This document shows, piece by piece, positions 54,706 through 60,338 of a DNA stretch of 64,000 nucleotides. Position numbers and translations under genes: made by a program. The number at the start of each line of letters is the position of its first letter. The first letter of the stretch is position 1. The stretch comes from Acanthochlamys bracteata (taxonomy: Eukaryota > Streptophyta > Magnoliopsida > Pandanales > Velloziaceae): assembly GCA_019914995.1 (NCBI GenBank), contig CM034140.1, positions 1,426,001 to 1,490,000 of the forward strand. Direction: 5' to 3'. The notes under the pieces were generated by a model. That model saw nothing but the letters and a program-made list of their open reading frames with translations, made no database searches and was not told where the DNA came from.

Positions 54706-55136
54706 CATCACTGCCTACCTTTTAGGGGGGAAAAAAAAGAAAAGAGAGAATCTTCAAAATTCTAATACTTTGGTGAGTGACAATTAGCAAGTTGAGAGAG
54801 TGAGTGATTGATGTCTGGGATGTGCTGTACAGGTGCTTCTTATGCAAATGTTTTAGAAACAGCACCAGGCGTTGTAGTGTGTTGTAGCTAGATTTCAGTA
54901 GTGCCGTTGCAGGTAGCAACTTAGGTTTGTGGTGTTGTAACAAAGAGTCTTTTTTTCTCTCGACACAAGTATTATCGTCATTGTCGGAAAGGAATAAAGC
55001 GTAACTTTCAATATTCATACTTCAGTTTTGCAAGAATATCTCATGGAGGTGTAGCCTGGTAGTATATAGGTTACAATGAACACAGGCTTCTGCTGATCCC
55101 TGCAAAACTTTAGAGCTTGCATTTAACGCAAAGAAG
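54706..55136. other. NF-YC 3' untranslated region and spacer
   Basis: Transcribed 3' sequence of NF-YC; an AATAAA-type signal occurs near 54992. No separate gene seen. Confidence 0.5.
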
Positions 55137-56309
55137 CTATGCATAAAACACTTGACCCACATTGAGCAAGCTCTCGAGAGGTACATTGAAAATAACACTG
55201 TTTTCCCTACATATCCTCCTAAGAAAGGCGTATACATAATCCACTGCAATCTTTTTCAAAAAAACTTTACTTCCTCCGTGCTCTCAATATCGTGTTTCCA
55301 TGAATGTGAACTACACCGGCCTGTTTACACCTGTTCAAGAACTCTTCGGCCTCCGTCTGACTCATTTGCCCTGAAAACCTCGACGCACCATTGGCATGAT
55401 GAGGGGATTGGACAGGTTCTATTGAGTCAGATAAAGTAGAACGCCTAATATGTGAGTTACCGTTTTCAGTGACGAGCAACTCAACTGAGTTATCGGTTTT
55501 CTGTCTTTGAACCCTGTAGGCAGTGACCACTGTATTCAGAATCCAGTAACCATCCATCAATGACTCCAATCTGACAAACAAAGAAAGCGCACCGAAGCGC
55601 ATCTTCTCAAAGTTGTCGTCTTTCTTGTGTAGATCCTTGTAACCATACCTTGCAACACAACAGAAGATGTGGAAGTTTTTTGGGCCAATTCTTCTTACAA
55701 GAAATCTAACGTCCATAGGAACTGTGTAGACAGGGAGGTACTTCACACAGACGGAAAAAACAACCGAGTGGATAGCTGGTAGGTTGGTGATGACCGTAGG
55801 CATTTCCATGACTTTGGTTCTTAGCAGTTACGGCTATACAAAGAATCACGAGGATCCAACTTATGTCAGGAATATATATCTGACCTAGAAACTTCTTTGA
55901 AGTATAAACCACATTGACCCGTGAGAAACAGCCAAGTGGTAATACTTGCTTGATTTATTGAAAATGCCACAGATACGGTGGCCTGGCTGACAATAACAGC
56001 TTCTAGTGTTGCAACTATAAACACTCGCCAGTATTCGCTGTCTACAAATAATAATAGCATCAGCAACTGATGCAGAGTTACAATCTGTTTTTCAATGAAG
56101 TTAGAAACATTTGGGCATTACCTGGAATGGGACGGTAAAAGGCATCAAAAACTGATCTTTGTTCTGCATGATGTAAGCTGCTTGTCCAGTGCATGCAAGA
56201 AGAAGGCAAGGGAAGACGACAATGGTGAAAGCTATCTACAATAAAGCCAGATGCAAGGTGTTAAAACGTGAAGCAAGACAAATCAATTTTGAGTTGCAAT
56301 GATAGGTTA

Positions 56310-56552
56310 GGGCATGTTCCTAATTGAATTTTTTAAAAATAAATTAAAAATATAGTTTAATTTTTATATTTTGATTATTTATTCAAGTGAGTTGAAAGTG
56401 AAATTTAATTTTTAGTTTTTTAAAAAAGTTGAAAATAAAATAAAATAATTTTGGAGTTTTGTTATGAGTTTAATTTATGTTTAAAATATGTGAGTCATAT
56501 GGTTCTCCAAAGTTTATAGAAAAAATTAAAAATTTAAATTTGAAACACGTCC
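56310..56552. mobile_element. MITE, 243 bp, TTA target-site duplication
   Basis: Left end GGGCATGTTCC and reverse complement of right end GGACGTGTTTC are imperfect inverted repeats. TTA occurs at 56307-56309 and 56553-56555. AT-rich, non-coding, with GAGTTGAAAGTGAAATTTAA inside, also seen in the 2672-3274 element. It lies in the KUP pseudogene intron directly beside the next MITE. Confidence 0.7.
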
Positions 56553-56556
56553 TTAC

Positions 56557-56816
56557 GGGGGCGTTTGGGATTGCTTATGAAATGGAGCTTTTGTGAAATG
56601 AAGGGTATTTTTGTCCTTTTTAAAAAACGAGCTCTATTTTTTTTACTTCTAAAAAAATAATAAAAATATGCAATAAAAAGATCTCACTCCGTAGAATTTT
56701 TCTACACTTTCTAAATTTTTAAATAAATTTTTTATATATTTATAAAATATGTATTGAAAAACGTGAAATGGAGAATTGAAAAGTTGGATTGGAGGAAAGC
56801 AAAGCCAAACACCCCC
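56557..56816. mobile_element. MITE, 260 bp, TAC target-site duplication, best-preserved copy
   Basis: Terminal inverted repeats GGGGGCGTTTGG and CCAAACACCCCC match at 11 of 12 positions, with TAC at 56554-56556 and 56817-56819. The interior shares long near-identical runs with 3656-3926 and 59959-60145. The 3-bp duplication and G-rich ...TTTGG ends fit PIF/Harbinger (Tourist-like) MITEs. It entered at the splice donor of the KUP exon ending at 56820. Confidence 0.82.
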
Positions 56817-56870
56817 TACATCGACAGCCAGAACAGGAAAGTGACAAAGATCAGCATACAAGGCTTTTTC

Positions 56871-57442
56871 CTGAATAATTGAAGAAAAAGGATGTAAGTT
56901 ATCATACAATTACCAAATCAAGTAAACAAAAAGCACTCTGATTAAAATCTAAGTATCCAACATGTAATACTAAGCATAATTCCACCAAGAGAGGTCCAAT
57001 ATCGTGATCCCTTCTGAAATAACGGTATATGTGTACACGGGAGAGAAAGCTTTCAATACTCTTTAAATATGAAAACATACGTAACTTTACATTATAAATA
57101 CTATATATATAATACATTTAAATTTTTTAATTAAAAATATTTTGAAAATTTCTTTTTTTTTATTTTATTTTTTTTAACCAAAACCATGTTTCATAATCAA
57201 TCCGAAAGATCCCAAAAGAATCTGCCACCCGATCTCTGGAGAATGGAGGTCGACATGTTACCACTTTGAATACTTTTCAACCAAAATTGAATTCTTTTGT
57301 TTTTGGTTAGAAAGAAAACGTTTCCATTTATCTTCCCATTTTCTTGTTCAATTCTTATGCTTCTTCTTGCTAGAAATTAATTTTCTCCTACCAATCTTCA
57401 AAAAAGAATTTGGAAAATTTACCAAGTTTTGGGTTTTCCTTG
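56871..57442. other. Spacer between KUP pseudogene and SDRB
   Basis: AT-rich; no earlier KUP exon recognised. The last 150 bases are the likely SDRB promoter and leader. Confidence 0.45.
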
Positions 57443-60338
57443 ATGGGTTCCAGTAGTTCTCCATTTCGAGCTGATATATTGAAGGGAAAGGTGGCCTTGG
57501 TGACCGGCGGTGGGTCTGGAATCGGCCTCGAGATCAGTACTCAGTTCGGTAGACACGGCGCTGCTGTTGCGATAATGGGCCGCCGCCGCCATGTCATTGA
57601 TGAAGCCGTTGAACATCTCCGGTCCTTTGGCATTCAGGTTAGGATGTGTTGCTGGATTGTTGTTAATTTCGAGCTCTAATCAAGTTTGAGATCTGAGTGC
57701 TTGCTTTTCCTCTTTTTCTTTTTACATGCAACTTTAGATAAAAGTTTTGAGTTTTCGGTGATAAGGAATCAGTTTGTTATGCGATTTGATGAAATTCGTA
57801 AGTCTTTCTTTATGATTTACATGTGATTTGAGCTCTGGCTGCTTGCCTGCTTTCCTAATGATTATGCTTGAAGGTTAAAGAACTTAAGGCGCAGGAGAGT
57901 TCCGGATATATAATTCAGTGAAATTAGGGTGTACCTTTTTTGAGGTTTAGAATTGTCGCTAGGTAATTTTGGATGTGTAAGTTGGAAAAAGTATTGTGCA
58001 TTTTCTTTGTGATTTTTATAAACTTAAAGTCCTGTTTACTTGGTCTGCCAGAAAAATAAGAAATGGGCTGATGTAAGTTTGCATTTTCCCATGGTTTGTC
58101 TCCTATTATGCACTGCAGGCCGCTGGGTTTGACGGTGATGTTCGCAAGCGGGAAGATGCAGCTAGGGTTCTAGAGCAGACTGTCAAACATTTCGGGAAAA
58201 TTGATATTCTTGTCAATGGAGCAGCTGGCAATTTTCTTGCAGCACCAGAGGATTTGTCGCCTAATGGATTTCGAACAGGTAGAAATCTCTTTTTTATGTT
58301 TAAAATGTATGCTACCATTGGTTAAGCAAATTGTTAGTGTTGACTGGGGTTGGTTCAGAACATGCTCTTACATTTAAACCACAGTTAATATCTATGGCTC
58401 ATCTGGTTGAGACTACACAATGATTCTTCCATAACTTTTCCCAACCCTCTACACATAATGGAGCACGTAATCTTATCTTTAGTAGACATAGCTGAAGGTT
58501 CTGCATCTTAAACTTATGTAGTAAAGCATTTGCTATTATTGGGACAGCCAGTTGACTTGTAGTTCTCTGAAGCATAGTTCTTTGATTGCTTTTCCTGAAT
58601 AGTTATTGCTGCTATCATTTTTCAGTGTTGGATATTGATTCAGTTGGAACATATACGATGTCCTTTGAAGCTTTAAAATATCTAAAAAAGGCAGGAATAG
58701 GTAGAGATCAATCAACGGGTGGACTTATTCTGAACATAAGTGCAACTCTACATTATACAGCATCTTGGTATCAGATTCATGTATCTGCTGCAAAGGTATA
58801 CCTGTATATGTTGATTAAGTAAGAGCTCCTGCTTCACTATTGCTAAGTGTTTTCTCATTCCAAATGCAGGCAGCTGTTGATAGCATCACTAGATCTTTGG
58901 CTCTTGAGTGGGGAACAGATTATGATATCCGAGTCAATGGTATTGCTCCAGGACCAATTGAGGGAACTCCAGGAATGAGGAAGCTTGCGCCAGAAGAGTT
59001 AGAAAGCAGGACACGAGATTACATGCCTCTATTCAAACTAGGAGAGAAATGGGACATCGCGATGGCAGCTGTTTACTTGGCTTCTGGTGCAGGTTGGTTA
59101 CCATACTTTTTACATGAATTACTCTTTTCCAGTATGATATTTTGCCTAAACTTATGAAAGATTTCACAAAAAATACTGTTTGGACTGCGTTGTTGATGGC
59201 TAGCTGAAAAAACATTGCAAGAATTGTAACAATCATTATATATAAGCGACATACAGGTTTCTGGCTTTTTTCCAGGAAGCCATGGTATCTCCTAGTGTTA
59301 ACCTGAATATCACTATTTAGTCGATCGGACTCAACCCTTCTTGTAAAATTGTTCTGGATAAAGACATATCATAGCTACAAGAATGCAAATTAAACATTTG
59401 TGAAAATGGAAAAGAGGCTTGCATGAGAATTAAATGTTTAGTTGCTTGCCAAAACTGAAATAAACATGGTAAAGATATTTTAGATCTCCAGAATCTTATG
59501 AGATGTTGACTCCGCGACCATGAGAGATCATCAATTACTTAATAGTGTCATCTTTTTGTTGTCGTGCTCTTAATGCCTATGTTCTTTCAGGCAGCACAGT
59601 ATGAATATATATAGTATGTGTAGCCAAAGCCTGGATTTCTTCTATGGAGCTTAGTGCCACCTTTTAGTTATCCAACAACATTTGCTTGAGAAATTTATGT
59701 ACCAATGTCTTTTTAACACAAGGCAAAAATGGGAGATACTACCAGTGCCTCGTAGTAAATAAATTGATTTGCGAAAGCAATCACTGCCCAGATAGGGGCA
59801 GGTTAGCCATGAAGAATGTTTTTGTTTTCGCCATAGCACACCTATGATTATGTTGATCTCAGTGAACTAGGAGCAGGTTGGATATTTGAGGATTCTGACT
59901 ATTTCTCGAATATTGCTGCTGTAAGTACTTGAAAATTCACATGTAAATATAAGACAAAGGGGACGTTTGGGAGTGCTTATGAAATGGAGATTTTCTGGAA
60001 TGGAGGGTATTAAAAATCTCACTACGTAGAATTTTTTTAAACTTTCTAAATTTTTAAATAGATTTTCTAAATACTTATAAAATGTGTATTGAAAAACATA
60101 AAATTAAAAATTAAAAAGCTAATTTTCTTGTAATGTTTACAGTAGAATTTGGTGTTCTATAATTGATTAACTACCTCTCGCAGGTAAATACATCAACGGC
60201 CACACTATGGTTGTTGATGGAGGGCTGTGGCTGAGTCGTCCTAGACATGTACCCAAGGAGGAAGTGAAAGCACTATCAAGAGTAGTAGAGAAGAAGACGA
60301 GATCATCATCATCCAAGCTTCCTACCAGCAAACTTTGA
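57443..60338 (+). CDS. SDRB: Peroxisomal 2,4-dienoyl-CoA reductase (SDRB)
   Basis: Short-chain dehydrogenase that reduces 2,4-dienoyl-CoA esters during peroxisomal oxidation of unsaturated fatty acids. Five exons join in frame: 57443-57637, 58119-58278, 58626-58795, 58870-59092 and 60184-60338, giving 300 residues. The nucleotide-binding TGGGSGIG is at 21-28, then GDVRK, the VNGAAGNF motif, the NISATLHYTASWYQIHVSAAKAAVD catalytic region, IRVNGIAPGPI, and GHTMVVDGGLWL. The C-terminal SKL is a type 1 peroxisomal signal. The start is the first Met before the conserved FRADILKGKVALVTGG. Two MITE-related sequences lie nearby, one inside intron 4, without harm to the splice sites. Confidence 0.96.
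59959..60145. mobile_element. MITE copy in SDRB intron 4
   Basis: Starts GGGGACGTTTGGGAGTGCTT, nearly identical over 26 bases to the 56557 element, and shares TCTCACTACGTAGAATTTTT and the TTATAAAATGTGTATTGAAAAA core. The right terminus is eroded, so the end is approximate and no duplication was found. Confidence 0.65.

Follow-up and report, generated by a model that had tools for sequence, protein, structure and literature searches.

PIF/Harbinger (Tourist-like) MITEs have terminal inverted repeats of 14-25 bp and ends of the form G(N)5GTT, the motif being that given in the accessible text of PMC2213677, and the available part of PMC2836001 describes a 9-bp target preference for PIF and mPing. 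Clusters of MITEs that arose from adjacent insertions have been described in pineapple, where, in the text open to us, they are Mutator-like elements with TA microsatellite joints (PMC8449440). In mulberry, MITEs have been found at alternative splice sites, again as given in the accessible portions of the report and of a later review (PMC6593561; review PMC12595863). A limited literature search, confined mostly to papers outside subscription, returned no title or abstract on two MITEs in one splice donor. Jiang and Wessler are said to have studied nested MITEs.

Here we describe a locus of Acanthochlamys bracteata where two MITEs, E1 and E2, lie side by side at an exon end of a KUP/HAK gene copy. 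The window, meaning the whole stretch of DNA that was analysed, is 64 kb long; coordinates refer to it, and all features of the site are on the minus strand.

Two elements at one exon end

The relic KUP exon (56820..56870), whose counterpart in the related gene on contig C10 is 53 bp long and ends GTACAG, closes with GTCGAT, the exon-side letters up to 56820 being, as read directly, ...GCTGTCGAT. The bases adjoining it, GTA (56817..56819), are the left target duplication of E1, a 260-bp PIF/Harbinger-type MITE running GGGGGTGTTTGG...CCAAACGCCCCC (56557..56816). Between the elements stand the four letters GTAA (56553..56556), within which the right duplication of E1 (GTA, 56554..56556) overlaps the left duplication of E2 (TAA, 56553..56555). 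E2, a 243-bp MITE whose family is old and diverged (GGACGTGTTTC...GGAACATGCCC; 56310..56552), is followed by its right duplication, TAA (56307..56309), and then CC. Further on, the AG of the old acceptor (TTGTAG/ATAGC, the slash marking the border; 56236..56237) is retained in both the window copy and C10. Re-extraction of letters and coordinates bore out the first-pass annotation, which had placed E1 (260 bp, GTA on both sides) and E2 (243 bp, TAA on both sides) at a KUP exon end and had derived GAT/GTAACC on their removal: the flanks joined without both elements read GTCGATGTAACC, i.e. GTCGAT/GTAACC. Two distinct MITE insertions, no more than one base apart, are supported.

E1 looks like a PIF/Harbinger (Tourist-like) MITE. 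Its termini, GGGGGTGTTTGGCTTTGC and GGGGGCGTTTGGGATTGC (the latter the reverse complement of the 3' end), are alike at 15 of 18 positions, both fit G(N)5GTT, and its hairpin fold has a z of -5.55. When the best 40 of 3998 first-look candidates were scored, window copy included, 39 others proved to be near-full matches at 95-99% identity, and three weaker pieces (79-86%) were also found. In the genome, 176 exact copies of the 18-bp 5' end were counted, against 0 for a reversed-pattern control, and a perfect 3-bp target duplication flanks 35 of the 40 copies, the window's among them (5/40 lack an exact match). The near-full matches, the end counts and the identical flanks together argue that E1 is not a product of chance. 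Because the 40 copies are those that match the window copy best, they understate the spread of the family.

TTA (13) and TAA (8) account for 21 of the 35 duplications; the other 14 are GTA (4, including the window copy), ATA (4) and one each of GAA, TAC, GCA, TTG, ATT and TAG. GTA is thus, by the flanks of the perfect copies, a usual though minor target of E1. The preference extends beyond the duplication itself, with A at -2 in 27/35 sites, T or C at -1 in 32/35 and A or G after the duplication in 33/35; the window site, GAT-GTA-A, fits it. In this E1 is comparable to PIF and mPing with their 9-bp preference, as far as the accessible text goes (PMC2836001). Judged against the same partial sources (PMC2213677, PMC2836001), E1 resembles Tourist-like MITEs in its G(N)5GTT ends, its mostly TTA or TAA 3-bp duplications and a preference reaching past 3 bp, and it differs from typical ones by sitting also at GTA, ATA and others (14/35).

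Several further E1 copies deserve mention. The joined site of one (L016) is GATGTAACC, identical to the window's. Two copies on contig C12 (L023 and L031) lie on opposite strands and share their flanks over the 12 bp compared, so a segment of ~100 bp or more seems to have been duplicated along with E1. As for a source, the DDE_Tnp_4 domain has at least 151 matches (150 of 311 candidates scored), and at five of 30 scanned loci (L098, L104, L105, L111, L123) an end like the 3' end of E1 lies 715-738 bp 3' of the domain. A second E1-like end was not found at the one locus followed. Those five loci are a possible source family of E1.

E2, too, looks like a PIF/Harbinger (Tourist-like) MITE. Both of its termini, GGACGTGTTTCAAA and GGGCATGTTCCTAA (the latter the reverse complement of the 3' end), fit G(N)5GTT; they are alike at just 10 of 14 positions, as expected of an old copy. 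Its 39 other matches show 72-87% identity, many of them partial. Among the 20 of these that were analysed, four have both ends, with matching TTA or TAA flanks, and no such pair was found in the other 16. The mean identity of E2 to these relatives is 66%, their own means being 64-73%. E2 departs from the relatives' consensus at 13 of 146 core columns (8.9%; relatives 5.6-13.4%) and at 40 of all 215 informative columns (18.6%; relatives 8.3-21.7%).

Since E1 abuts E2 and both carry Harbinger-type ends, the pair could be read as a single composite element that moved as a unit. Each element has its own duplication, however, with GTA on the outside of one and TAA on the outside of the other; moreover, no second full-length E1-E2 match was present beyond the window among the matches listed, and an exact pattern across the E1/E2 junction occurs once in the genome. 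We give this reading practically no weight, and, with no second junction found, a composite element was ruled out.

By exact pattern the E1-E2 junction is unique, yet elements overlap in a 3-bp site elsewhere too. A search for further Harbinger-type ends that abut at a spacing of exactly 3 bp returned three rows at two places. On contig C20 (L080:1230-1790), a row of Harbinger-type elements has a single TTA between neighbours, the last element being E1-like at 86%. On C13 (L078:1501-1525), a palindromic junction is formed by two E1-like ends that point towards each other with TCA between them. The window site resembles the pineapple clusters, as the available text presents them, in having independent elements side by side with no nesting, and it differs from those Mutator-like clusters in that two Harbinger-type elements overlap in GTAA (PMC8449440).

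A decayed KUP/HAK duplicate

By its sequence, the host is a KUP pseudogene, a decayed duplicate of the gene on C10. Homology to the C10 gene extends over 55073..57059 (minus strand), with frameshifts, a 593-bp deletion at ~55791-55793 and no N-terminal part. C10 holds the closest relative found, 75% identical in the last exon at the protein level and 81-84% identical in three pieces at the DNA level, and at both loci the matching between C10 and the window copy (contig C15) continues past the gene on its downstream side. The C10 gene is open across the 520 codons compared, its sole stop being at the end. Relative to it, the window exons carry indels of +2, -1, -2, -1, +1, -6, -3, -1, -2, -3 and +1, at least five of which shift the frame (the late single -1 and -2 may cancel each other), and the 593-bp deletion removes one intron and part of the last exon. 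The open reading frame across the conserved exons that marks a functional KUP/HAK gene is absent from the window copy.

The KUP homology begins at 57059, and the 4.4 kb upstream at the C10 locus found no match within the 64-kb window. By eye, a short-chain dehydrogenase gene appears near 57059 on the opposite strand. A degraded E1-like stretch, also seen by eye, lies at 59955-60130 (minus strand), apparently inside the neighbouring dehydrogenase-like gene.

A query with the relic exon found four places, namely C15 itself (93%), C10 (63% over 35 residues), C20 (71% over 28 residues; another KUP gene) and C5 (43%), and a last-exon query found 18, namely C15 (100%), C10 (75%) and 16 others at 30-59%. 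Neither query revealed another allele, or a haplotig, that lacks E1 and E2; what C10 carries is a diverged relative and not an allele of the window locus.

The first reading of the site had both elements falling into the splice donor of a working gene. That is not supported for a KUP copy with these frameshifts, the 593-bp deletion and the missing N-terminal part, and most of the functional story falls away with it, the copy being a relic. Since the copy is already wrecked, the elements document transposon history and probably have no effect on splicing today. MITE sequence stands at the position of a 5' splice site here, as in the mulberry and review cases in the text accessible to us, but, unlike in those cases, in a broken gene copy (PMC6593561, PMC12595863). 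In other respects the locus looks like any decayed KUP/HAK duplicate, truncated, partly deleted and frameshifted where its partner is intact, and the two MITEs are the sole oddity seen.

Donor strength with and without the elements

Donors were scored against the U1 consensus, as generally known, by unweighted matches over nine positions and by the longest run of matches over eleven. The element-free state GAT/GTAACC has 5/9 matches and a run of 4, the state with E2 only (GAT/GTAAGG) 6/9 and 5, and the present donor GTAGGG 5/9 and 3; the GTAAGG at the present E1/E2 junction has 6 matches and a run of 5, and the C10 donor CAG/GTAGGT has 8 and 6. It had been proposed that a normal donor became a poor one through E1. 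The scores do not bear this out: the count gives GTAGGG no clear disadvantage against GTAACC, the run a slight one, and C10 itself reads CAG/GTAGGT.

Part of the weakness lies outside the elements, in the exon end GAT: at the corresponding place, 7/8 other KUP genes have G as the last base of the exon (ten rows were compared, from which L082 and L090 were dropped as misaligned). One of these genes, L092, reads AGG/GTAACA there, which shows that an open KUP gene in this genome can have a donor starting GTAAC, with C at +5, and favours the earlier view of GTAACC as a normal donor. The CC after TAA may also have drifted once E2 had parted TAA from the exon. A cluster of mismatches suspected by eye at the junction was discarded, as the 15 densest 14-column windows between relic and C10 lie elsewhere.

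Order and timing of the insertions

The first-pass annotation had also ordered the events, E2 before E1, from the junction. Its order is favoured by divergence, but the junction letters on which it rested fit both orders: starting from GATGTAACC, either sequence of insertions yields identical final letters. Across the 260 bp of E1, the window copy has 0 private positions among the 40 copies, a state it shares with 19 of the 39 others; the rule of three then sets an upper limit of ~1.2% on its age. The divergence of E2 given above is an upper bound on its insertion age, since part of that divergence may predate insertion. An E1-first order is equally compatible with the junction; against it stand the apparent youth of E1 and age of E2, the latter figure being that upper bound, and we consider this order very unlikely.

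Neutral change per lineage since the duplication, between relic and C10, is 0.131 at third positions and 0.121 in introns; in two intact pairs the third-position values are 0.157 and 0.177. Differences between relic and C10 at codon positions 1, 2 and 3 number 34/388, 36/389 and 86/389, compared with 35, 23 and 83 of 324 for an intact C15/C10 pair and 28, 10 and 62 of 220 for an intact C20/C19 pair. Six of eight control gene pairs were left out, five as too distant and one (L081/L082) with only 10 aligned codons. Since its pattern resembles that of the intact pairs, the relic probably stayed under constraint over much of the period since duplication, its death coming late; the substitutions alone do not reveal a long-dead gene, and the codon-position pattern probably speaks against one, though it is compatible with a gene that is dead. 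We estimate that the relic has been dead for a fraction of 0.24 of that period (range -0.17 to 0.65).

Indels are several times rarer than substitutions. On that assumption, the short time for which E1 has been in place is unlikely to have sufficed for two large losses and at least five frameshifting indels, and from the many lesions set against no private change in E1 we infer that the gene was probably dead by the time E1 landed. The older E2 may have arrived while the gene functioned.

That leaves room for the gene having been alive at both insertions, the second of which would have damaged the donor and helped to kill it. The exact placement at the donor position, an E2 old enough to have inserted during constraint and the fall of the longest U1 run from 5 with E2 only to 3 now all agree with such a course. 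The lesions (at least five frameshifting indels, the 593-bp deletion and the N-terminal loss) are nevertheless hard to fit after an E1 without private change, and the U1 matches are equal now and without the elements (5/9), so that we regard it as improbable. Less improbable, though still rather unlikely, is the idea that E2 alone hit a working donor, that the duplicated TAA and the element's own first bases GG rebuilt a usable GAT/GTAAGG, and that splicing and constraint persisted until a later death.

The history that probably accounts for the elements, their duplications, the gene lesions and the intact partner, all of which are present in the DNA, is one of decay with two insertions at different times by two different PIF/Harbinger-type families. 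A duplicated KUP/HAK copy (C15, with its intact partner on C10) would have decayed by truncation, deletion and frameshifts; E2, of the old family, would have inserted first, into TAA at the old exon-intron border, and the young E1 much later, into the overlapping GTA, each duplicating its 3-bp target. E2 before E1, gene death before E1 and the lack of a present splicing effect are the parts of this history that we infer.

The cause of what is seen at this locus is ordinary biology. It illustrates that a striking junction can mislead: exact 3-bp duplications mimic a two-step attack on a splice site, when the host is broken and the letters give no order. If E2 did strike a working donor, the site would be a case of self-healing insertion right on a splice junction, in which the target duplication restores the donor that was struck. 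In either case, two MITE families have used overlapping target bases, and the chain of elements at L080 points the same way.
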